DNA of 64,000 nucleotides from Mycolicibacterium sp. MU0053 (lineage in GTDB: Bacteria > Actinomycetota > Actinomycetes > Mycobacteriales > Mycobacteriaceae): positions 868,001 to 932,000 of the forward strand of contig NZ_OY726397.1 in the NCBI RefSeq assembly GCF_963378095.1, in the 5' to 3' direction. Under the pieces are notes generated by a model that was given only the letters and a program-made list of their open reading frames with translations, was not told where the DNA came from and ran no database searches. The translations under genes were made by a program, and so were the position numbers. Below are positions 51,655 to 62,316 of this stretch, one piece after another (position 1 is the stretch's first letter; each line of letters starts with the position of its first letter).

Positions 51655-52650
51655 GTGGCCGAACTGATCACCCAGCGGGCCAGTCATCTTTCGGGCCTGT
51701 CGGTGTTCGCCGACTGCTTCGGCGCCGATCTCTACGGCCTGGCCGCCAGCCTGGAACCGCTGCACCTCGATCCCGGCGAAGTGTTGATGGAACAGGGCGA
51801 CACGTCGCATTTCTTCGCAATCCTCGCCGACGGGTCCGTCGCAATCCGCCATGAGGACGGCAACGGGGCGGCGGTCGAGATGGTGGTGCCCGCCGGTGAG
51901 ATCGTTGGCGAGATCGCCATGCTCAAGAACCAGCCCCGCGTCGCGTCCGTCGTCGCGACCACCGAGGTGACGGGGTGGCGCGGCGGCGACGACGCCTTTG
52001 CCGAGCTGATCCAGTTGCCCGGCGTGCTGCGGAACCTGGTTCGCACCGCCAGACAGCGCCTGGCCGCATTCCTGACCCCGATTCCGGTCCGGATGCGCGA
52101 TGGCTCCGAGATGCAGCTGCGCCCGGCGCTGCCAGGAGACAAAGAAATGGCCTCGCATGGCCACGTGCAGTTCTCCGCGGAGACGTTGTATCGCCGATTC
52201 ATGTCCTTTCGCGAACCGAATCAGCAGTTGATGAGCTATCTGTTCGAGGTCGACTACGTCGATCATTTCGTATGGGTGATCACCGCCGAGGACGACGAGG
52301 TGGTGGCCGATGCCCGGTTCGTTCGGGACGAGAGCAAGGGGACAACTGCCGAGGTCGCCTTCATCGTCGCCGACGCGTATCAGGGCAGGGGTGTCGGTTC
52401 ATTTCTCATGAAGGCAGTGGCGATCGCCGCCGAAGTCGCCGGCGTCGAGCAGTTCACCGCGCGGGTGTTGAGCGAGAACCTGTCGATGCGCAGAATCCTG
52501 GACGGCTACGGAGCGCATTGGGAGCGGGAGGATCTCGGAGTGGTGATGACGGTGCTGCCGGTGCCGGAGCGCAGGCGCATCAAATTGCCCAAAGACCTGG
52601 CGGACCGGATTGCGGGTTTGGCGCGTCAGGCCATCAAGGCGGTGGGATGA
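51655..52650 (+). CDS. pat: cAMP-dependent protein lysine acetyltransferase Pat
   Basis: This 331-residue protein fuses a cyclic-nucleotide-binding domain (residues 10-140) to a GNAT domain (150-310), the layout of mycobacterial Pat (Rv0998, MSMEG_5458). The cAMP pocket GEIAML with Arg95 in PRVASVV is intact. The acetyl-CoA loop is QGRGVGSF (243-250), and Glu233 in TAEVAF matches the proposed general base. It acetylates acyl-CoA synthetases and universal stress proteins, inhibiting propionyl- and acetyl-CoA synthetases when cAMP is high. GTG 51655 has GGAAGGA upstream. The stop overlaps the next gene's start. Confidence 0.95.
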   Translation: MAELITQRASHLSGLSVFADCFGADLYGLAASLEPLHLDPGEVLMEQGDTSHFFAILADGSVAIRHEDGNGAAVEMVVPAGEIVGEIAMLKNQPRVASVVATTEVTGWRGGDDAFAELIQLPGVLRNLVRTARQRLAAFLTPIPVRMRDGSEMQLRPALPGDKEMASHGHVQFSAETLYRRFMSFREPNQQLMSYLFEVDYVDHFVWVITAEDDEVVADARFVRDESKGTTAEVAFIVADAYQGRGVGSFLMKAVAIAAEVAGVEQFTARVLSENLSMRRILDGYGAHWEREDLGVVMTVLPVPERRRIKLPKDLADRIAGLARQAIKAVG

Positions 52651-53474
52651 TGGCGCGCCCGGCGCTGAGCAAGGACACCACGGTGTGCATCTCGTTGGCT
52701 GCGCGTCCGACCAACATCGGTACCCGCTTCCACAACTACCTGTACGAGCAACTCGGGCTCGACTTTCTGTACAAGGCCTTCAGTACCAGCGACATTGCCG
52801 CAGCCATCGGGGGCGTGCGTGCACTGGGCATTCGAGGCGTTTCGGTGTCGATGCCGTTCAAACAGGACGTTCTGGGTCTGGTCGATCACGTGGAGCCCTC
52901 CGCGCGAGCCATCAACGCGGTCAACACCGTAGTCAACGACGCGGGGGTGTTGACGGCCTCGAACACCGACTACCTCGCCATCGAGCAGTTGATCGAATCG
53001 CACGGGCTGGTGCCCGATGCGACCGTGCTGCTCTGCGGTAGCGGCGGAATGGCCAGCGCCGTGGGAACCGCATTTCGGGACAGCGGATTTCAGAGCGGCG
53101 TGGTGATCGCCCGCAACCCGGTCGCCGGGCCGGCGTTGGCCGAACGGCTGGGCTACCGCTGGCGGCCGCACGTCGGCGGGGCCACCGCCTCGATCGTCAT
53201 CAACGCCACGCCCATCGGCATGGCCGGTGCCGCGGAGGAGCGCGACAGCCCCTTCGGCGAGACCGCCATCGCGGCCGCGGACACCGTGTTCGACGTGGTG
53301 GCTGTGCCCGCGGAGACGCCGCTGATCGCTGCCGGGCGGGCGGCAGGCAAACGGGTGATCACCGGTGCCGAAGTCATCGCTCTACAAGCCGCGGAGCAGT
53401 TTGCGCGCTACACCGGTGTGCGGCCCTCCGCGGAACAAGTGGCGGAGGCCGCTGCGTTCTCCCGCGGCACGTAG
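52647..53474 (+). CDS. Shikimate 5-dehydrogenase-like protein
   Basis: This 275-residue AroE-fold protein has the catalytic pair Lys72 (VSMPFKQDV) and Asp108 (SNTDYLA) and a dinucleotide loop LLCGSGGMASAV. The substrate-binding serines normally found near residue 15 (SKSP-like) are replaced by CISLAARPTNIG, so the substrate may not be shikimate. ATG 52647 overlaps the pat stop by 4 bp (ATGA), indicating translational coupling with the acetyltransferase. A strong hairpin follows the stop. Confidence 0.82.
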   Translation: MMARPALSKDTTVCISLAARPTNIGTRFHNYLYEQLGLDFLYKAFSTSDIAAAIGGVRALGIRGVSVSMPFKQDVLGLVDHVEPSARAINAVNTVVNDAGVLTASNTDYLAIEQLIESHGLVPDATVLLCGSGGMASAVGTAFRDSGFQSGVVIARNPVAGPALAERLGYRWRPHVGGATASIVINATPIGMAGAAEERDSPFGETAIAAADTVFDVVAVPAETPLIAAGRAAGKRVITGAEVIALQAAEQFARYTGVRPSAEQVAEAAAFSRGT

Positions 53475-53489
53475 CTGGTCCGGACACTA

Positions 53490-53519
53490 CTGCGGGGCGG
53501 CCGGTGGGCCGCCCCGCAG
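53490..53519. terminator. Hairpin shared by the aroE-like gene and copy 1
   Basis: CTGCGGGGCGGCC (53490-53502) pairs perfectly with GGCCGCCCCGCAG (53507-53519) around GGTG. It is placed to end both the plus-strand aroE-like gene and minus-strand copy 1. The same hairpin is repeated at 56765-56794. Confidence 0.8.
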
Positions 53520-53535
53520 TAGTGGTGGGTGTTGG

Positions 53536-53769
53536 TCAGCGCATGTAGAGCGGGTGGTTCACGGTGGTGTTGAACCGTTGCTTGTCGCGCTTGTCGACCT
53601 TCTCGGTGTTGTTCTGAATGCGGGGGAATTCCTGCGGTGCGGCGCTCAGGGAGATGTCTGCCTGGCTGAGGCTGTCGATGGCCGGGACGGCCAGTGCCGG
53701 TGCGGCCAAACCGATTGTGAGAGCTGCCAATCCGCTGGTGATTGCTGCGGTCAATTGGATCTTCTTCAT
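53536..53769 (-). CDS. Small exported protein, array copy 1 (short form)
   Basis: This 77-residue protein has a Sec signal (MKKIQLTAAITSGLAALTIG, cleaved near ALA at residue 27). The mature part contains the array signature PQEFPRIQNNTEK, then RDKQRFNTTVNHP, ending in LYMR. Compared with copies 3 and 4 it stops right after NHP and lacks the Pro/Gly-rich tail ending in PIVG. It differs from copy 2 by one residue (Leu for Phe). It is expressed away from aroE, with its promoter block at 53827-53904. Confidence 0.8.
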   Translation of the reverse strand: MKKIQLTAAITSGLAALTIGLAAPALAVPAIDSLSQADISLSAAPQEFPRIQNNTEKVDKRDKQRFNTTVNHPLYMR

Positions 53770-53826
53770 GGGATTTCCCGCCTGTTCTCTGTTGCGCTGC
53801 TGGCGTGTTTCGCTTATGCACAATGG

Positions 53827-53904
53827 AACTCGGTGGGGAAGTGTTTTCTTCCCGGTGAATTCAGGGGTGGACGAACTTGGCGGAATGTTGTCGGGGCCTG
53901 GCAG
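53827..53904 (-). promoter_or_regulatory. Promoter block of copy 1 (GGAA-N19-GTT plus upstream element)
   Basis: On the minus strand GGAA (53852-53849) and GTT (53829-53827) are 19 bp apart, an ECF sigma-factor-like arrangement 57 bp before the start codon. Further upstream, 53877-53904 holds TTGGCGGAATGTTGTCG followed by CTGGCAG in plus-strand reading. Both elements recur for copies 2, 3 and 5. Confidence 0.5.
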
Positions 53905-53995
53905 AAAACGATGAAAGCATCGCCGACGAACCCTCCGCATGCCTCGATTACGCCCGGGGCAGGGCATTCTCGGTGTCCGAACGAAGTCGGCCGAC

Positions 53996-55246
53996 CTAAT
54001 TGGTCGTCGGTGGTGCTTGCGGTTGGAAGGGTTGGTACCACCACCATTGGGCGCGTTCGCCGGTGGGTCCGGGGCAGGGTGGGACATCGGGTGGGGGAGT
54101 CTTCGGCGGGCGAGCCAGCGCGCCTGGGTGCAGTGGCTGGCCGTCGCTGTCGGTCACGACGAGTCGGTGGGCGGGTCCGGTGAGGGTGAGCAGGCCGCGG
54201 TGGTGGGCGCGGTGGTGGTAGGGACAGAGCAGGATGAGGTTGTGCAGTTCGGTGGGGCCGCCGTCTTCCCAGTGCACGAGGTGGTGAGCGTGCAGGCCGC
54301 GGGTGGCGCCGCAGCCGGGTACCGCGCAGCAGCGGTCGCGGTGTTCGAGGGCGCGGCGCAGTCGTCGGCTGATGGTGCGGGTGGTGCGGCCGGCGCCGAT
54401 GGGTTGGCCGTCGTGTTCGAACCACACTTCGGCGGTGGCGTCGCAGGTCAGGTAGCGGCGTTCGTGATCGGTGAGCAGCGGTCCCAGGTGCAGGGCGGCC
54501 AGTCGATCCTTGACGTCGAGGTGTACGACCACGGTGGTGTGCTGTCCGTGGGGGCGGCGGGCGACGTCGCAGTCCCAGCCGGCTTCGATGAGGCTCATGA
54601 AGGCATCGACGCCGTCGGGAAACGGTGGCGCCTGTTCGGGGATCGGTCCGTTGGCGTCGTGGTCGCGTTTCCAGTCGGCGATCTGCGCGTCGCGGTGGGA
54701 CTGTAGGGCGGCCTCGAATTTGGCGGCCTCCACCCGTGGCAAGCGGATGCGCCAGGTGGTGTGGTCGTCCTGGACCACCTTGGTGATCGAGCGCTGCACT
54801 TCCGGTCGCGGTTCGGGGTCGGGTCGGGGTTCGAGTTTGACGGCGGTGCGTAGTTGGTTGACGGTGGCGACCTCGGCCAGTTGGGCGTAGTGCTCGTCGG
54901 AGCCGTCGGCGGCGCGTTCGGCGATGACTCCGAGTCGGTCCAGTGACAGTCGACCCTCACGGAGTCCTTGGGCGCAGCGGGGGAATTCGTCGAGGCGCTG
55001 CGCCACCGCGACGATCGTCTCGGCGTTGCGCGGCGAGGTGCCGGTCTTCCAGGCCACCAACGCCGGCACCGACTTCGCGCCGGTGTTGCCCCACAGTCCG
55101 TCGCGGTCCACCTCGGCAACGATCTCCACGATGCGCCCGTCGATCGCATTGCGCTGACCGGTCAATTCGGCAAGTTCGTCGAAAAGTACCTCAAGACGCT
55201 GGTCAGAGCGCCCCGCAGTGATGGCTGAGGTCGCGGCCGGGAACAT
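53996..55246 (-). CDS. HNH endonuclease domain protein of the 13E12/DUF222 family
   Basis: This 416-residue protein has an N-terminal DUF222 helical domain (residues 15-290) and a C-terminal HNH nuclease motif (about 325-370). CAVPGCGATRGLHAHHLVHW and NLILLCPYHHRAHH contain the catalytic His and zinc cysteines. These proteins are numerous in mycobacteria and behave like mobile or selfish elements (REP13E12 type), and their substrate is unknown. The start ATG 55246 faces the IS110-type element. It lies wholly inside the interval bracketed by the 426-bp repeats, so it arrived or was captured with it. Confidence 0.9.
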   Translation of the reverse strand: MFPAATSAITAGRSDQRLEVLFDELAELTGQRNAIDGRIVEIVAEVDRDGLWGNTGAKSVPALVAWKTGTSPRNAETIVAVAQRLDEFPRCAQGLREGRLSLDRLGVIAERAADGSDEHYAQLAEVATVNQLRTAVKLEPRPDPEPRPEVQRSITKVVQDDHTTWRIRLPRVEAAKFEAALQSHRDAQIADWKRDHDANGPIPEQAPPFPDGVDAFMSLIEAGWDCDVARRPHGQHTTVVVHLDVKDRLAALHLGPLLTDHERRYLTCDATAEVWFEHDGQPIGAGRTTRTISRRLRRALEHRDRCCAVPGCGATRGLHAHHLVHWEDGGPTELHNLILLCPYHHRAHHRGLLTLTGPAHRLVVTDSDGQPLHPGALARPPKTPPPDVPPCPGPTGERAQWWWYQPFQPQAPPTTN

Positions 55247-55339
55247 GACCTCAGCATTGCAGGGGGGTCTGACATTGATACTGGAAGAGCGTTACCGCGC
55301 AGGTCGTGACTCTGGGTCTGACTGACGCCCTGCTGGGTT

Positions 55340-55500
55340 GTCCATCAATTGATTTGTCCGGCCTGCGTGGTGCGCGTCTTGTTCACGCCGGACAGGACGG
55401 ACATGACCTAATCAGGAGCCTGGCCGTTCCCTCATCAATGTCTTGTCTGCCCGCCCTGGCCGGTGTGTGCCCTACTCAACGCGAAGTCAGAAGGGACATC
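55340..55500 (+). ncRNA. Possible IS110 bridge RNA region
   Basis: This non-coding stretch directly upstream of the transposase frame has an 8-bp stem (55353-55360 with 55385-55392) and further GC-rich complementarity (CCGCCC/GGC runs near 55447-55465). In IS110 members of this layout the bridge RNA is encoded in the left non-coding end. Assignment is by position and weak structure only. Confidence 0.3.
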
Positions 55501-55506
55501 ACCATC

Positions 55507-56704
55507 TTGGCAGATTCCACGCTCATCGTCGCCGGCGCAGACACCCACGCCGACACCATCCACGTCGCGGCGATCTCGATGACCGGCGCGACGATCGGTG
55601 ACCGGGAGTTCCCGACCACCGCCGCCGGTTACACCGCGGCCATCAGATTTCTGACGTCGTTGGGGCAGGTGGAGTTTGTCGGGGTGGAGGGCACCGCCAG
55701 CTACGGCGCCGGATTCACCCGAGCACTGACCACTGCTGGCATCGAGGTCGCTGAGGTGACCCGCGCGGTCAAGTCCACCCGACGATTGAAAGGAAAATCT
55801 GACCCGCTCGATGCCTATAGCGCCGCCCGCACGGCGTTGGCCGGCGACGGGCTGGCCGCTCCGAAAGATGACGCCACCGCGGGGCTGCGTGCTCTGCACA
55901 TCGCTCGACGCTCGGCGGTCAAGCATCGCACCCGGTGATCAATCAACTCAAGGCCATGTTGGTGTCCGCACCGGATGCGGTACGTGAAAAATACCGAGGG
56001 CTAACGACATTGAAGCTGGTCGAAGCGATCGCCCGCTGCCGACCCGACGCGCAAGCCGAGCCGTGGGCGCAGTCGGTGCTCGTCGCGGCCAAGCTGCTCG
56101 CCCAACGCGTGCAGTTCCTCGAGATCCAAGCTGAGGCCCTCGAAGCTCAGATCGACACTCTCGTGACAGCGGCGAATCCCGGGTTGCGGGCGGCCTACGG
56201 TGTCGGTGCGGACACCGCCGCCCAGTTGTTGATCACGCCGGGGCCAACGCGCACCGGTTGCACAGTGAGGCGGCGTTCGCCGCGCTGTGCGGCGCGGCGC
56301 CCGTCCCCGCGTCTTCGGGCAAGACCAACCGGCACCGACTCTCTCGTGGCGGGGACCGTGCGGCCAACAACGCCCCGTTCCGCATCGCCCTGGTGCGCAT
56401 GTCCCACCACCAGCCGACCAAGAGTTACGTGCAACGACAGCAGGCCCTGGGCCACACCCGGATGGAGATCCTGCGCAAACTCAAACGGGCCATCGCCCGG
56501 GAGATATTCAAGCTCCTGACCCGCCAGATCGCCGTGCCCGACTACGCCGACCTGCGCCCGGCCCGTCAAGCCAAGAACATCACCGTCACCGCCGCTGCCA
56601 ACCACTTCGGGCTCTGGCCCACCGTCATCTCCCGCATCGAACGCGGACTACAACGCGACGATGCCTTCGCAGACACCTACAGAAACTGGCTCCAAGCCGC
56701 TTGA
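55507..56704 (+). pseudogene. IS110-type transposase with two frameshifts
   Basis: Homology runs through three frames. The first part (55507-55938, TTG start) holds the DEDD catalytic residues Asp12 (GADTHADT), Glu60 (VGVEGTASYG) and Asp98/Asp101 (SDPLDAYSAART) and ends at VKHRTR. The next part (55935 to about 56240) continues INQLKAMLVSAPD through AAQLLIT. The last part (from about 56245 to 56704) contains the C-terminal transposase domain (HSEAAFAALCGAAPVPASSG). Each junction needs one missing base, near 55936 and in the GC run near 56240. The protein is therefore not made from a single frame. Confidence 0.85.
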
Positions 56705-56764
56705 AAGAAATAGGAGCATCAATTCCGGGGTACGCGCTGCTCCGGCCACCGTTGCGACGACGAA

Positions 56765-56794
56765 CTGCGGGGCGGCCGGTGGGCCGCCCCGCAG
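56765..56794. terminator. Hairpin after copy 2
   Basis: Same 13-bp perfect stem and GGTG loop as at 53490-53519, placed 16 bp beyond the copy 2 stop on the minus strand. Confidence 0.8.
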
Positions 56795-56810
56795 TAGTGG
56801 TGGGTGTTGG

Positions 56811-57044
56811 TCAGCGCATGTAGAACGGGTGGTTCACGGTGGTGTTGAACCGTTGCTTGTCGCGCTTGTCGACCTTCTCGGTGTTGTTCTGAATGCGGGG
56901 GAATTCCTGCGGTGCGGCGCTCAGGGAGATGTCTGCCTGGCTGAGGCTGTCGATGGCCGGGACGGCCAGTGCCGGTGCGGCCAAACCGATTGTGAGAGCT
57001 GCCAATCCGCTGGTGATTGCTGCGGTCAATTGGATCTTCTTCAT
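56811..57044 (-). CDS. Small exported protein, array copy 2 (short form)
   Basis: This 77-residue protein is the near twin of copy 1, with the same signal peptide and PQEFPRIQNNTEK core and ending NHPFYMR. Its promoter block (GTT 57104-57102, GGAA 57127-57124, upstream element 57152-57179) has the same 19-bp spacing. Because copies 1 and 2 are 99% identical they result from recent duplication. Copies 3-5 are older relatives. Confidence 0.8.
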   Translation of the reverse strand: MKKIQLTAAITSGLAALTIGLAAPALAVPAIDSLSQADISLSAAPQEFPRIQNNTEKVDKRDKQRFNTTVNHPFYMR

Positions 57045-57101
57045 GGGATTTCCCGCCTGTTCTCTGTTGCGCTGCTGGCGTGTTTCGCTTATGCACAATG
57101 G

Positions 57102-57179
57102 AACTCGGCGGGGAAGCGTTTTCTTCCCGTTGAATTCAGGGGTGGACGAACTTGGCGGAATGTTGTCGGGGCCTGGCAG
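57102..57179 (-). promoter_or_regulatory. Promoter block of copy 2
   Basis: GGAA at 57127-57124 and GTT at 57104-57102 on the minus strand, 19 bp apart, 58 bp from the start codon. The upstream element (plus-strand TTGGCGGAATGTTGTCG, then CTGGCAG) is at 57152-57179. Confidence 0.5.
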
Positions 57180-57254
57180 TAAACGATGATTGCGGCGAAT
57201 TCTGGGGACTGGTCCCGCCCGCGAGCACCTCACCCGGCGGCGGCCACCTCAACG

Positions 57255-57290
57255 CCACTGCGGGGCGTCCGTGTGGACGCCCCGCAGTGG
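57255..57290 (-). terminator. Perfect 16-bp hairpin after copy 3
   Basis: CCACTGCGGGGCGTCC (57255-57270) pairs with GGACGCCCCGCAGTGG (57275-57290) around GTGT. It shares the TGCGGGGCG word with the hairpins after copies 1, 2 and 4. Confidence 0.8.
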
Positions 57291-57328
57291 GAGATGTTGG
57301 TGTTCAGTTGTTTCGGTTGTGCTGGCGG

Positions 57329-57649
57329 TCACCGTCGCCCGACGATCGGACCGATCGGCAGCGAACCCGGCAACTGCCCCGCGGTGATCCCGGCACTCTT
57401 GCTTGGGCGCGGGTTCAGCGAGTTGTAGAAGGGGTGTCGGACCTCGGTGTTGAAACGTTGCTTGTCGCGAACGTCGTTCTTTTCGGTGTTGTGCTGAATT
57501 CTGGGGAACTCTTGCGGCGCGGCGACCAACGATGCACCGTTTTGAGCGGGTGTGGTGACGGTGGGTCCCGCCAGTGTCGGTGCGGCCAAACCGGTTGTCA
57601 GAGCGGTCAACCCGCTGATTACGGACGAGGCCAGTAGTGTCTTCTTCAT
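57329..57649 (-). CDS. Small exported protein, array copy 3 (long form)
   Basis: This 106-residue protein has a signal peptide (MKKTLLASSVISGLTALTTG, cleavage near residue 27). The core PQEFPRIQHNTEK, then RDKQRFNTEVRHPFYN is followed by the C-terminal tail LNPRPSKSAGITAGQLPG, ending PIGPIVGRR. No cysteine is present. About 60% of its positions match copy 4 by eye. Its promoter block (57720-57807) resembles those of copies 1, 2 and 5. Confidence 0.8.
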   Translation of the reverse strand: MKKTLLASSVISGLTALTTGLAAPTLAGPTVTTPAQNGASLVAAPQEFPRIQHNTEKNDVRDKQRFNTEVRHPFYNSLNPRPSKSAGITAGQLPGSLPIGPIVGRR

Positions 57650-57719
57650 TGGATCGCCTACCTCTTTTTCGGTTCCGTCTTTGCTCTGACGGTGGAGGAC
57701 TTCGCCTTCTGCACAGTGG

Positions 57720-57807
57720 AACTCAGGGGTGAAGGGTTTTCTTCCCGGTGATTCCGGAGTGACCCGCATTTGGTGAGGTTGGCGGAATGTTGTCGACGAA
57801 CTGGCAG
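57720..57807 (-). promoter_or_regulatory. Promoter block of copy 3
   Basis: GGAA (57745-57742) and GTT (57722-57720) on the minus strand keep the 19-bp spacing, 71 bp from the start codon. The upstream element TTGGCGGAATGTTGTCG followed five bases later by CTGGCAG lies at 57779-57807. Confidence 0.5.
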
Positions 57808-57827
57808 AAATCCCGCCTCGAACGCCA

Positions 57828-57857
57828 ATGCGGGGCGTCCGTGTGGACACCCCGCAT
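57828..57857 (-). terminator. Hairpin after copy 4
   Basis: ATGCGGGGCGTCC (57828-57840) pairs with GGACACCCCGCAT (57845-57857) around GTGT with one mismatch. It belongs to the same hairpin family as those after copies 1-3. Confidence 0.75.
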
Positions 57858-57891
57858 CGGGATCTGTTGCTGTTGAGTTATGTGCTGGGGG

Positions 57892-58212
57892 TCACCGTCT
57901 TCCGACGATCGGGCCCAGCGGGACCGTGCCCGGCGACTGCCCCGGTGTGATCCCGGGGCTCGTGGACGGACGCGGGTTCAGCGAGTTGTAGTACGGGTGG
58001 TTCACTTCGGTGTTGAACCGTTGCTTGTCCCGAATGTTGTTCTTTTCGGTGTTGTGTTGGATTCTGGGGAATTCTTGTTCATCGGCGATTAGTGATCCAC
58101 CGCTCTGAGCGGGAGTGGTGATGGCCGGGGCGGCGATTGCCGGTGCAGCCAAACCAATTGTCAGAGCTACCAACCCGCTGATCGCGGCCGAGCCCAGCAG
58201 TGTCTTCTTCAT
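57892..58212 (-). CDS. Small exported protein, array copy 4 (long form)
   Basis: This 106-residue protein has a signal peptide (MKKTLLGSAAISGLVALTIG), the core EQEFPRIQHNTEK, then RDKQRFNTEVNHPYYN, and the tail [18 protein letters not shown] ending PLGPIVGRR. It is closest to copy 3. Its upstream region differs from the others and lacks the 28-bp element. A degenerate GGAC-N19-GTT (58320-58295) is present farther from the start. Confidence 0.8.
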   Translation of the reverse strand: MKKTLLGSAAISGLVALTIGLAAPAIAAPAITTPAQSGGSLIADEQEFPRIQHNTEKNNIRDKQRFNTEVNHPYYNSLNPRPSTSPGITPGQSPGTVPLGPIVGRR

Positions 58213-58436
58213 CGTAATCTCGCCTCTTCTTTACTTCTTGCCTCTTTCTCCACCGATTATGGGTTGGAGAATTAATTTGTCGTCTATGGGGTAGAACGCT
58301 AAATGCTGGAGAATTAGTCCCGCCGACTGCATTTGGGCGATATCGTCTCCATGTCGGCGTCAATTCGACAGCACCGATCCGCAGGAATAACTCAATTCCG
58401 GTGATCTGTAGTTATATAGCGACTTTTCGCGATCCG
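58213..58436. other. Intergenic region between array copies 4 and 5
   Basis: No gene is seen. On the minus strand GGAC (58320-58317) and GTT (58297-58295) are 19 bp apart, resembling the spacing of the other copies. The stretch 58213-58330 is unusually AT-rich for the window, with GGAGAATTA occurring at 58266-58274 and 58308-58316. No clear terminator for copy 5 is visible. Confidence 0.4.
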
Positions 58437-58754
58437 CTATCTCAGGCCGACGATCGGTCCCAGCGGCACCCGACTCGGTAGCTGTCCGGGCGTGACACCG
58501 GAATGCCCGGCGGGCCGTGGGATCAGGGAGTCGTTGTAGGGATGCTTGGCGATGCCGAAATCGTGGTACGGGTACCGGTCGTCCGTCTCGTAATTGTGCG
58601 GTTCGGTCGGGTTCTTGGGGGCGTTGAGCATCACGGTGTCGCCCGATTGAGCAGGCGCCGTCGATGCCGGCACTGCCATTGCCGGTGTGGCCAAACCGAT
58701 GGTCAGAGCGGCTAATGCAGCTGCACTTGCCGAGCTCAGGAGGATCTTCTTCAT
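58437..58754 (-). CDS. Small exported protein, array copy 5 (divergent form)
   Basis: This 105-residue protein has a signal peptide (MKKILLSSASAAALAALTIG) and the same C-terminal tail (LIPRPAGHSGVTPGQLPS, ending PLGPIVGLR). The core has changed: the EFPRIQ-NTEK motif is replaced by KNPTEPHNYETDDRYPYHDF. Conservation of both ends with a replaced middle suggests the ends are functional. It keeps the complete promoter block (58825-58901). Confidence 0.78.
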   Translation of the reverse strand: MKKILLSSASAAALAALTIGLATPAMAVPASTAPAQSGDTVMLNAPKNPTEPHNYETDDRYPYHDFGIAKHPYNDSLIPRPAGHSGVTPGQLPSRVPLGPIVGLR

Positions 58755-58824
58755 TGGATTTCTCACCTCTTCCTCGGTGCCGTCTGTACTCCGACTGGGG
58801 AGTACTTCGCGGTCTGCACAGTGG

Positions 58825-58901
58825 AACTCGGGGGTGAAGTATTTTCTTCCCCGTGATTTCGGCCACGGCGAGATTGGCGGAATGTTGTCGAAAACTGGCA
58901 G
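58825..58901 (-). promoter_or_regulatory. Promoter block of copy 5
   Basis: GGAA (58850-58847) and GTT (58827-58825) on the minus strand with 19-bp spacing, 71 bp from the start codon, and the TTGGCGGAATGTTGTCG element followed by CTGGCAG at 58874-58901. Since copy 5 protein is quite diverged, retention of this block indicates function. Confidence 0.55.
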
Positions 58902-58951
58902 TAACCAGGGCAATAACGGAGTGTTAACGGCGGAGTGTGGTACCAACGGGC

Positions 58952-59632
58952 ATGCGGCTCCTGCCTGCCCTCGTGGTGACCGTTCTGGTCGCCGGCTGCG
59001 GCGTCCCCGCCGGACAGAACGGCGCCGGAACCGCGACGGAGACCGCCCGAGCCGAGAACGGCCCGGATTCCATCGACCCCGACCGCGTCAAGCGGATCCG
59101 CAAAGACCTTCCGGCCGGGGATGAGGTCGCGGAGGCCCGCGACGTGACCTCCCCGGCGACGTATTGGGGGATGCGGTCGGGTTGGGTCGCCGAGCCACCG
59201 CAGTGCGCGGCACTGGTGAACCCGGCCGACGGGGGCGTAAGTCGGGGGCTGTCGAGTTCCGGCGACGGCGGTCAGATCTATGTCGTCATTGCCGCGGCCC
59301 CCGAGGGGAGGCAGGTGGCCCCAGGCCCCGCGTTGGTGACCGAGTGCCAACAGTGGACCGCCTCCTTCGGGCGCTCGGTCGCCGCCGTCACCCAGGCCCC
59401 CGCGCCTTCGATTGACGGGGCCGACGGCACCGTCGGGATGACGACGTCGATTCGCACCCTCGTCGAGTCGGGAACCGAGACTGATTCCCACGCCCACACC
59501 TATATCGCCTACCTGGATGCGCACCTCATCTTCGTCACCCTCATCGTCGACCCCGGCTCGCCACATCCGCCGCTGCCGCCGCAATACGCCGCCGACCTAT
59601 TGGTCAAAACGGTCGCCGCTGCGCGCGGGTAA
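58952..59632 (+). CDS. Lipoprotein of the DUF5642-like family, first copy
   Basis: This 226-residue protein has a lipoprotein signal peptide (MRLLPALVVTVLVAGC) with Cys16 as the lipidated residue. The mature domain includes WGMRSGWVAEPPQCAALVNP, TECQQWTASFG and a C-terminal half typical of mycobacterial LpqN/DUF5642-like proteins. Two further cysteines (about residues 91 and 132) may pair. The next gene encodes a similar lipoprotein. Function is unknown; such proteins bind small hydrophobic or envelope ligands in some cases. Confidence 0.72.
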   Translation: MRLLPALVVTVLVAGCGVPAGQNGAGTATETARAENGPDSIDPDRVKRIRKDLPAGDEVAEARDVTSPATYWGMRSGWVAEPPQCAALVNPADGGVSRGLSSSGDGGQIYVVIAAAPEGRQVAPGPALVTECQQWTASFGRSVAAVTQAPAPSIDGADGTVGMTTSIRTLVESGTETDSHAHTYIAYLDAHLIFVTLIVDPGSPHPPLPPQYAADLLVKTVAAARG

Positions 59633-59659: not shown

Positions 59660-60322
59660 ATGTCCACACATAGAGTGCTGGTTTCGGTGGTAAGCGTCGG
59701 CCTGCTCGCTGGGTGCTCGGCGGCAGAAGATCCCGGGACTGCGGAACCGGTCGACATCTCCAAGATTGGCCAACTCACGTCGACGTTCGGTCCCGAGTTC
59801 CAGGTCAGCGAGAAGTCCTCAGGTCTTGACCCCAAGATTCTGGAAAACCAGAAGCCGCCCGAAGGAGTGAAGTTCGAGCCCGCCGAATGCGGAGAGTTCG
59901 CCAGTATGCAAACGCTGCCCCCGGATCTCAAGGGCAACATGTCCGCGGTGATTGCCGAAGGAGCGGGCAACCGGCTGGTGGCAATCGCACTGGAAACTTC
60001 GCAGCGGGTGCCGCTGAACGACCCCTCCGACAACTGCAAGAAATTCTCCTACGCCGCCGGAGCGACGCGGGGCACCATCGAGTCGGTTCCGGCCCCGCAG
60101 ATCGATGGCGTCCAGACGCTGGGCGTGCACCGGGTGGTACAGGCGACCGTGGACGGCAAGATGCAGACCGGCGAGGTGTACAGCTACATCGCACAGCTCG
60201 GTGAGTACCAAGTCATCGTCACCGCCAACCCGTTGGTGACCCCCGACAAGCCGCCGGTGCCCGTGGATACTGCGCGGGCCGAAGGGGTGCTGGTCGACGC
60301 CGTGACCGCAATCCGGAATTAG
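59660..60322 (+). CDS. Lipoprotein of the DUF5642-like family, second copy
   Basis: This 220-residue protein has a lipobox LLAGC (Cys19) and a mature domain with FEPAECGEFASMQTLP, SDNCKKFSYAAG and QIDGVQTLGVHRVVQ. Two cysteines at equivalent spacing to the first copy support a common fold and a disulfide. It follows the first copy by 27 bp, so they are probably cotranscribed. Hairpins at 60464-60478 and 60491-60513 may end the transcript. Confidence 0.74.
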   Translation: MSTHRVLVSVVSVGLLAGCSAAEDPGTAEPVDISKIGQLTSTFGPEFQVSEKSSGLDPKILENQKPPEGVKFEPAECGEFASMQTLPPDLKGNMSAVIAEGAGNRLVAIALETSQRVPLNDPSDNCKKFSYAAGATRGTIESVPAPQIDGVQTLGVHRVVQATVDGKMQTGEVYSYIAQLGEYQVIVTANPLVTPDKPPVPVDTARAEGVLVDAVTAIRN

Positions 60323-60552: not shown

Positions 60553-60600
60553 GGTCACCCTGCTGGGAGCGTGGGTTCGAGGAAAGGCGGGGTCGACGAC

Positions 60601-62316
60601 GTGTACGGATGGTTGGGGCAGATCGGGATCGTTTCATCGACGGCGGTGCTGATCAGCGCCTACGGCATGGCCAGCCCACCGCGCGATCGGGCCGAGGACT
60701 TGCTGACCGCGGTCGCTGCGACACGGGAAATGACTACTGCGCATCTGCCGCTCTACCTAGCCAGCCTGCATCGTCCGCTGCCGCCGATGAGTTCAGGCGC
60801 CGACGGTGGTGATGACGGCAGCAAGAGGCGTGGTGGGGGTGGTGCCGACCGTCGTGGCGCGGAACGCAATTCAGACCCCAGCCGCGACCAGGTTGACGAC
60901 CGCGGTTCACGGAACCGCAGTGGTGGGCGTGATGGTTCAGAGCGTCGCGCCGAGGACCGTCGCGGTTCGGAGATCGGCGCCGAGCGGCGTGGTGGCATGG
61001 AGAACCCCGGTCGCGGGCGCGGTGGTTCGGAGAGTCGTGCCGTGCTGCGTGCTTTCGACGGACGTCGAAAGGGATTGGAGCGAGGGTGGTCCGACCGCGA
61101 AGGTGAGCGTCAGGAGTCGGGCGTGACCAGCGGCTCTGATGGCGCCGGTGCCGTGGGCAGTCGGCGTGCGCTCCTCGGGCTTTTGGACCGACACCGCGGT
61201 AGCGACCGCGGTCTCGGCGCAGACCAAGTCGACGATGACCACGATCACGGCGAGGACGATGATCACGGCGGGGACGATGATCACGACCACGGCCATGATC
61301 ACGACGGGGACGATGGCGACGGCGATGGCGATGATCACGCCGGCGACGATCACGACCATGATCACGATCACGGCGGGGACGATGGCCACGACCATGACCA
61401 CGACCATGACCACGATCACGGCCATGATCATGGCGGGGACGATGGCGACGGCGATGGCGATGATCACGCCGGCGACGACGATCCCGGTCATGATCACGGC
61501 GGGGACGATGATCACGACCATGACCACGATCACGGCGGGGATGATGACCACGACCACAACGATGAGACCCCGGCGCAGCAGCTTGTGCGGAGTTTGCTGA
61601 AGGCTCTGGGGCTAGAAAACCACCCGGCGGTGATTGAGATTCTGCGAGTCCTGTGGGGCGGTAATGGTGGGGGTGGTCACGACCACGGTGGCGGTGGCCA
61701 TGACCACGACCACGGTGGGGGTGGTCACGACCACGACCATGGTGGCGGTGGCCATGACCACGATCACGGTGGGGGTGGTCACGACCATGATCACGGCCAC
61801 GGCGGGGAGGTGCACGGCCATGATCATGGCCACGCTCACGGTCACGGGATCGCTGCGCTTCTGGGTGGACACGCCCATGAACACGGTCACGATCACGTCC
61901 ACGGGGTGGCATTTTCGGACCACGACCACAGTGCCCTCGGCCATGATCACGACCATCGGTCGCACGATCACGAACACGATCCCAGTCATAACCATGAGCA
62001 CGGCCACGACGCCGGCCACGGTCACGGTCACGAACACGATGCCGGACACGACCACGACCACAACCACGGGCACGATCACGGCCACGATCACGGCGAGCAG
62101 GGCGAACACGCCGCTCCCGCGGACGCGGTGAACAATCGCGGAGTACAGACGGCCGCGACGGGGACCCCGTGGACTTCCCCGCTGGTATGGAGCGGCTTGA
62201 TTGCTGTGCTCGGTGCACTGGCGTTGGTCGGCCGGTGGATCGCCGGTGCGCTGGCTGGAAACTCCGGCGCGTCGGGGCGGTGGCAGCGCAGGCGAACCCG
62301 GCGCCCGAAGCCGTAG
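60601..62316 (+). CDS. His/Asp-rich putative metal-binding membrane protein
   Basis: This 571-residue protein has an N-terminal hydrophobic segment (IGIVSSTAVLISAYGMA) and an Arg/Gly/Ser-rich region (75-205). Two huge His/Asp tracts (about 209-320, rich in HD and DD, and 355-500, with tandem GGGGHDHDH units) are separated by a helix (QQLVRSLLKALGLEN, then IEILRVLW). A C-terminal membrane helix (LVWSGLIAVLGALALVGRW) ends in a basic tail (RRRTRR). It likely buffers Zn, Ni or Co outside the membrane. GTG 60601 or 60571 may be the start. Between 60806 and 61225 another frame has more typical codon use, so a sequence error or old frameshift there is possible. Confidence 0.7.
   Translation: MYGWLGQIGIVSSTAVLISAYGMASPPRDRAEDLLTAVAATREMTTAHLPLYLASLHRPLPPMSSGADGGDDGSKRRGGGGADRRGAERNSDPSRDQVDDRGSRNRSGGRDGSERRAEDRRGSEIGAERRGGMENPGRGRGGSESRAVLRAFDGRRKGLERGWSDREGERQESGVTSGSDGAGAVGSRRALLGLLDRHRGSDRGLGADQVDDDHDHGEDDDHGGDDDHDHGHDHDGDDGDGDGDDHAGDDHDHDHDHGGDDGHDHDHDHDHDHGHDHGGDDGDGDGDDHAGDDDPGHDHGGDDDHDHDHDHGGDDDHDHNDETPAQQLVRSLLKALGLENHPAVIEILRVLWGGNGGGGHDHGGGGHDHDHGGGGHDHDHGGGGHDHDHGGGGHDHDHGHGGEVHGHDHGHAHGHGIAALLGGHAHEHGHDHVHGVAFSDHDHSALGHDHDHRSHDHEHDPSHNHEHGHDAGHGHGHEHDAGHDHDHNHGHDHGHDHGEQGEHAAPADAVNNRGVQTAATGTPWTSPLVWSGLIAVLGALALVGRWIAGALAGNSGASGRWQRRRTRRPKP

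Follow-up and report, generated by a model that had tools for sequence, protein, structure and literature searches.

Gene layout and products of the array

The DNA analysed here, referred to below as the window, is a 64,000-nucleotide stretch of Mycolicibacterium sp. MU0053 (contig NZ_OY726397.1, positions 868,001 to 932,000). Its ORF (open reading frame) list contains an array of five related minus-strand genes that encode proteins of 77, 77, 106, 106, and 105 amino acids (aa) (Table 1). As read by eye, all five proteins begin with MKK, followed by a hydrophobic stretch and a site of the AxA type. Copies 1–4 carry the core QEFPRIQ.NTEK..RDKQRFNT and copies 3–5 carry a tail ending in GPIVG. 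A first-pass annotation of the window had described five minus-strand genes of these lengths, with Sec signal peptides on all five, a shared core in copies 1–4, and a Pro/Gly tail in copies 3–5. The ORF coordinates and sequence comparison agree on the genes, the core, and the tail, and the leaders as read by eye look like putative Sec signal peptides. It also described the genes as a tandem array. This stands for the five related units, with the qualification that 2.85 kb separates the unit of copy 1 from that of copy 2, a stretch that contains a DUF222-HNH gene and a broken IS110 element. These two units are one 426-bp repeat with 98.8% identity and 5 mismatches, 1 of which is coding, and copies 1 and 2 are a recent duplication.

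Table 1. Positions in the window of the array, its control signals, and the genes around it.
Feature	Position	Strand	Basis
Shikimate-dehydrogenase-like (aroE-like) gene, left flank of the slot	52614..53474	+	
GC-rich hairpin after copy 1	53485..53527	-	alignment of hairpins
Duplicated unit, left (hairpin, gene, and promoter); 98.8% to 56764-57189	53489..53914	-	alignment
Copy 1, 77-aa exported protein, tail-less	53536..53769	-	ORF list, sequence read
GGAA-N19-GTT, candidate ECF-type promoter, copy 1	53827..53852	-	motif scan
Upstream element ACAACATTCCGCCAA, copy 1	53877..53891	-	genome motif search
DUF222-HNH gene between copies 1 and 2	53996..55246	-	family search
Broken IS110-family transposase, split over frames, between copies 1 and 2	55306..56704	+	ORF list, family searches
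GC-rich hairpin after copy 2	56764..56797	-	
Duplicated unit, right	56764..57189	-	alignment
Copy 2, 77-aa exported protein; single residue differs from copy 1	56811..57044	-	ORF list
GGAA-N19-GTT, candidate ECF-type promoter, copy 2	57102..57127	-	motif scan
Upstream element ACAACATTCCGCCAA, copy 2	57152..57166	-	genome motif search
GC-rich hairpin after copy 3	57255..57290	-	alignment of hairpins
Copy 3, 106-aa exported protein, tail present	57329..57649	-	ORF list
GGAA-N19-GTT, candidate ECF-type promoter, copy 3	57720..57745	-	motif scan
Upstream element ACAACATTCCGCCAA, copy 3	57779..57793	-	genome motif search
GC-rich hairpin after copy 4	57828..57857	-	alignment of hairpins
Copy 4, 106-aa exported protein, tail present	57892..58212	-	ORF list
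GGAC-N19-GTT, diverged candidate ECF-type promoter, copy 4	58295..58320	-	motif scan
Copy 5, 105-aa exported protein, other core subtype, tail present; counterparts We4 and Ch3	58437..58754	-	sequence comparison, tree
GGAA-N19-GTT, candidate ECF-type promoter, copy 5	58825..58850	-	motif scan
Upstream element ACAACATTCCGCCAA, copy 5	58874..58888	-	genome motif search
DUF5642 gene, right flank, divergent from copy 5	58937..59632	+	family search
Second DUF5642 gene	59660..60322	+	

Homologous arrays were found in M. wendilense and M. chitae. DNA synteny places all three in the same slot, flanked by an aroE-like gene on one side and two DUF5642 genes on the other. Comparison of copy number, which the first-pass annotation had proposed, gave 5 copies in the window, 4 in M. 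wendilense, and 3 in M. chitae. Below, W1–W5 denote the window copies, and We and Ch the copies of M. wendilense and M. chitae. Read from the aroE side, the proteins are 77, 106, 102, and 105 aa long in M. wendilense and 89, 90, and 100 aa in M. chitae. The M. chitae genes (MCHIJ_23840, 23850, and 23860) and those of M. wendilense are true homologues that share the slot and the promoter spacing, and the M. chitae array differs in having no tail-less copy. The first M. chitae copy (locus L041, 7201-7470) starts with MSSVAVSG and lacks the MKK present in the near-identical protein P0006, so that it may have a shortened leader or another start. With leader cleavage as predicted, the mature peptides of the three species are about 49–78 residues (5.5–8.5 kDa), hydrophilic, and without cysteine; 9 of the 12 are basic, with an isoelectric point (pI) of 8.6–10.9.

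No library searched contains the family, and its range is narrow. For the five copies, the best match in Pfam was DUF7327 in the leader region, at 11.9 bits where the cut-off is 27 (expectation value (E) 0.24), and the best in NCBIfam was NF005513, at 12.2 bits where it is 608 (E 0.045). Four copies (copy 2 was left out) had no match in PHROGs or PADLOC, a search of solved structures gave no relative (best E 0.62), and no article on the family was found in the open-access literature searched. Thus, the view of the first-pass annotation that this is no described family held, including in the profile searches by which it could have been placed in a characterised one.

Protein searches returned 12 proteins with copy 4 at E ≤0.01, 6 with copy 5 at E 0.1, and 14 with a mature-only profile at E 1. 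The named matches belong to M. wendilense or M. chitae, and the others lie on contigs or are the window's own. Database names of the homologues are hypothetical, uncharacterized, or secreted; two are called 'Serine protease', which the family searches do not support. Among relatives, 2 of 61 genomes matched, our own included. A profile scan of the genus, covering 396 genomes taken from a larger group, gave matches in 168 at E ≤0.01. Among the matches listed, only those in the source genome (G000), M. wendilense (G012), and M. chitae (G286) cover the whole protein; the other listed matches cover the leader, with few reaching residue 57, 64, or 74. Searches of phages, plasmids, and viral contigs with copy 4 found nothing, and we reject an origin from any of these. 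An alphaproteobacterial match (L039) was also rejected, being a stretch of a 797-aa ORF that resembles a TonB receptor.

Promoter candidates, upstream element, and hairpins

The pattern GGA[ACT]-N19-GTT precedes the ATG by 83–108 bp in all 12 genes of the three species. The first part is GGAA in 10 of the 12 and GGAC or GGAT in the other 2, and the N19 spacing and GTT occur in all. The pattern is retained in W4, We3, Ch1, and Ch2 despite diverged flanks, and it arose by chance in 0.7–5.7% of shuffles per gene. In a published account (PMC4803200), the M. tuberculosis SigH signature consists of GGAA and GTT 19 bp apart, with a start-site consensus of GGAAYR-N17-GTT. The same account states that SigE favours a pyrimidine at position 6 of the -35 element and that positions 2, 5, and 6 may vary. 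The array promoters resemble these SigH/SigE regulon promoters (PMC4803200) in the GGAA and GTT cores and in the 19-bp spacing; they differ in having GGAAGA as the -35 element and an additional conserved upstream element. This likeness suggests that they are candidate promoters for extracytoplasmic function (ECF) sigma factors of the SigH/SigE kind, the particular sigma factor being putative. A scan for sigma-70 promoters found 1, compared with a mean of 0.8 in shuffles.

The upstream element is the 15-bp sequence ACAACATTCCGCCAA. Its exact form occurs four times in the genome, always in the array (copies 1, 2, 3, and 5), where it ends 24–34 bp before the -35 element; two sites elsewhere in the genome have 2 mismatches. 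The conserved promoter block in four copies that had been noticed at first is thus confirmed, and copy 4 also keeps the promoter spacing, with a diverged block. In a genome search with up to 2 mismatches, the extended -35/-10 pattern was confined to the array.

Units of gene, promoter, and hairpin are repeated along the array, as first described, and recur in the two sister species. The hairpins after copies 1–4 are present and related. In an alignment, a single stem fits those of copies 1, 3, and 4 together with three from M. wendilense, with double changes that keep pairing in 4 of the 16 stem pairs; in some sequences the outer pairs are broken. Downstream of the M. chitae copies listed, no hairpin of this kind was seen. 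The first-pass annotation called these structures terminators; this label is no more than plausible, since they have no T-run and are absent from a scan for T-run terminators, which found 5 against a mean of 5.1 in shuffles, none of them at the array hairpins. At E ≤1, the single Rfam match in the array was a weak microRNA model over the copy 3 hairpin (25.4 bits against a cut-off of 62).

A wider class of mycobacterial exported proteins

Loci that match the array leader were read in two batches, 27 loci (L012–L038) and then 40 in list order (L131–L170). By eye, 61 of the 67 encode what we call family-1, mycobacterial exported proteins of about 100 aa with the motif MKKF..LAAPA.AAPTGPGNAQ.TI..L...GY.VIVNR.G..PL, and 6 encode a second family; a scripted pattern caught 20 of the 40 loci in the second batch. 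GGAA-N19-GTT lies within 220 bp upstream at 14 of 27 loci in the first batch (0.25 expected) and at 23 of 40 in the second (0.41 expected), counts that come from loci many of which are mutually related and not independent. By family, these are 34 of 61 family-1 loci and 3 of 6 second-family loci; the first 14 comprised 11 of family-1 and 3 of the second family. As controls, the flanks of DUF5642 and aroE on both strands had the motif in 1 of 60 and 0 of 42 cases, and the rate in the window is 1.5% per 220-nt stretch, with 4 of its 9 sites being the array's own. When loci were found by the whole family-1 protein, the motif was present at 8 of 19, and at 4 of the 13 that were new to the analysis; three M. 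chitae-group loci found in this way do not have it. No family-1 protein tried (five in Pfam and three in NCBIfam) had a match above the cut-off. Family-1 is multicopy: a family-1 protein used as query gave 2–18 matches in each of 12 genomes, counting those to the leader only. Genomes of the M. chitae group each contain one or two distant members, apart from leader matches to the array. The second family consists of exported proteins of about 70 aa that end in VNVNWC; GGAACA-N17-GTT was seen at L022, L024, and L031, and L018, L155, and L170 do not have it.

Family-1 also occurs in the slot of the array. We fetched 18 regions from relatives and counted the 15 that span aroE to DUF5642; the other three (L109–L111) served only as tblastn subjects. 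In 6 of the 15 intervals the gene divergent from DUF5642, in the place of copy 5, encodes a family-1 protein, and 3 of these 6 have a GGAAT..-type motif with N19 and GTT. An ORF filter found no family-1 protein in the remaining 9 intervals. As far as sequence can tell, promoter type and slot link the array to a larger class of exported mycobacterial proteins.

The two groups are thus alike in leader type, size, multicopy habit, slot (6 of 15), and the upstream GGAA-N19-GTT (about half of family-1 loci), with leader type and motif subject to selection bias. They differ in the -35 element, which is GGAAGA in the array and mostly GGAATT in family-1, and family-1 copies are mostly scattered in the genomes searched, unlike those of the array. 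The likeness could be convergence, if stress-controlled mycobacterial Sec proteins tend to look this way, and we give this explanation a chance not far short of even. Leaders are short and biased, and the mean leader identity between the array and the other loci (16.2 of 30, compared with 9.5 when shuffled) is inflated because these loci were picked by leader score; the difference in the -35 element also fits convergence. Against it, the leader-matched loci are not a random set of exported proteins, since by eye 61 of the 67 fall into family-1 and the other 6 into the second family, and family-1 occupies the same slot in the 6 intervals above.

A homologous mature domain was not found. The mature parts of the array and family-1 proteins showed no homology with hhalign (probability 0.11 of 100), so that a common origin of promoter and leader has to be argued from short sequences. 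A tblastn search of mature parts against 105 loci, with composition correction off, gave 760 weak matches at E ≤10 (best E 0.002), and no convincing match supported the idea that the mature part is frameshifted or antisense family-1 sequence. A genome that combines one promoter-leader with either mature part would be an intermediate, and we found none. We propose only tentatively, and as somewhat unlikely, that a genus-wide, ECF-controlled promoter-leader cassette has an exchangeable mature part. The M. chitae-group cassette next to DUF5642 would have acquired a new mature peptide, which may itself have arisen recently, and would then have multiplied into a tandem array; the core of one copy would have changed afterwards. 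Such a standing promoter and leader suggests a route by which new secreted peptides might arise. Family-1 itself, multicopy across Mycobacterium and with a SigE/SigH-type motif at about half of the loci examined, may matter more than the array; the frequency of the motif suggests a stress-induced small secretome that has gone unrecognised.

Selection on the copies and interpretation

We compared the copies across species with the ratio of nonsynonymous to synonymous substitution rates (dN/dS). Whole-protein dN/dS is 0.17–0.50 in nine cross-species pairs, and core dN/dS is 0.11–0.26 in 7 of 8 computable pairs and 0.70 in W3–We2; these ratios are rough because several pairs have a dS close to 1 or higher. 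The leader and the core are constrained to about the same degree. The linker between them is the loosest part in several pairs, with high dN/dS in some (0.504/0.385 in W1–We1 and 1.006/1.137 in We3–Ch2). Together with the homologues in two species, these values rule out chance ORFs, and on this comparative evidence the array is real and under purifying selection.

In the tree, copy 5 and its counterparts form a clade with support of 0.999. This core subtype is common to all three species, so the difference is old and predates the species split. The first M. chitae copy joins the subtype weakly (support 0.558 with DNA and 0.891 with protein). Copy 5 shares its leader and tail with the other copies. 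When its core was compared together with the HPY..SL.P stretch, the in-frame match was better than almost every shuffle (threshold 5 of 500) in 14 of 24 subtype pairs, and with the core alone 2 of 24 passed. A frameshifted core was tried and rejected, as 0 out-of-frame pairs passed the same threshold (24 pairs in 2 frames). The copy 5 core could thus have been either replaced or have diverged. The tail loss in copies 1 and 2 looks like a small frameshift that puts TGA in frame at CGCTGA. W1 and W2 group with We1 and We2 together, yet We2 has a tail, so either the tail was lost twice or gene conversion in M. wendilense blurs the tree. W3 groups with W4 and We1 with We2, within species. The first-pass annotation held that the module varies by part; this is borne out for the tail, and for copy 5 a core replacement is possible, though old, with the shuffle tests split.

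The reading that we favour, with confidence about evenly balanced, is that the array is a lineage-specific paralogous set for a small exported protein, arranged in separate ECF-type (SigH/SigE-like) transcription units of which the first four end in a hairpin. It would be a new orphan exported family, to date seen in three sister species, whose control signal is a candidate ECF promoter. Envelope or thiol stress would free the ECF sigma factor, which would transcribe the three to five units from predicted start sites at the GGA[ACT]-N19-GTT motif. The products would be exported via Sec and lose the leader at the AxA site. The short mature peptide, presumably without a stable fold when alone, would act in the envelope, where the constrained core and the GPIVG tail may bind a partner in the cell wall or outside. 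Several units might raise the dose, which is the other reading that the first-pass annotation had offered. The array occupies the slot where some relatives keep family-1, so it probably arose from, or beside, a promoter-leader unit that was already there.

Several points weigh against this reading. The 12 array promoters belong to paralogues and are therefore not twelve independent events. Their -35 element is GGAAGA in 10 of 12, in which position 6 fits the SigH consensus and position 5 (G, not C/T) fails. The ECF model does not account for ACAACATTCCGCCAA, for which the only explanation we can offer is that it may be an activator site. AlphaFold gave no usable model (mean predicted local distance difference test (pLDDT) 54 and predicted template modelling score (pTM) 0.10, with 14 sequences), although this may also reflect the shallow alignment. 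The rough dN/dS ratios, the relatedness of the leader-matched loci, and the mature parts without homology to family-1 count on the same side.

If a gene of mild function had simply been duplicated in tandem under neutrality, copy number would have no meaning; this would fit the recent origin of copies 1 and 2, with one coding change, and the variation in copy number among the three species. We consider it unlikely, since the older copies are intact, under purifying selection, and retain the promoter spacing, and the hairpins are kept in two of the three species.

Small, exported, mostly basic peptides with variants side by side could also be bacteriocin-like or signalling peptides that are released to act on neighbouring cells. 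However, no convincing partner gene lies between the units in ORF lists covering at least 60 aa in the window, at least 90 aa in M. chitae, and at least 40 aa in M. wendilense (coordinates only), lists that a very small immunity gene could escape. The lack of PADLOC and PHROG matches for four copies, the absence of copy 4 from phages, plasmids, and viral contigs, and the hydrophilic, cysteine-free peptides make this very unlikely as well.

Least likely of all is the antigenic or functional variation raised by the first-pass annotation, in which copies diversify by positive selection or recombination to show different surfaces: the copies do differ in length, tail, and, for copy 5, core, the linker is loose in some pairs, and the within-species clusters W3–W4 and We1–We2 are as expected from gene conversion, but the whole-protein dN/dS values above show no excess of amino-acid change, the copy 5 subtype is retained in all three species, and one report records M. 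burgundiense and M. wendilense isolates from gastric lavages as 'saprophyte' (PMC11706282).

Other features of the window were observed alongside the array. The DUF222-HNH gene, which we take to be 13E12-like, has two more matching stretches elsewhere in the genome (78 and 81%). The NCBIfam name of the IS110-family transposase describes it as RNA-guided. Beyond the second DUF5642 gene, a 581-aa ORF (60571-62316) has long His/Asp/Gly repeats (HDHDHG) that look metal-binding, and weak Rfam matches to microRNA models land on it.

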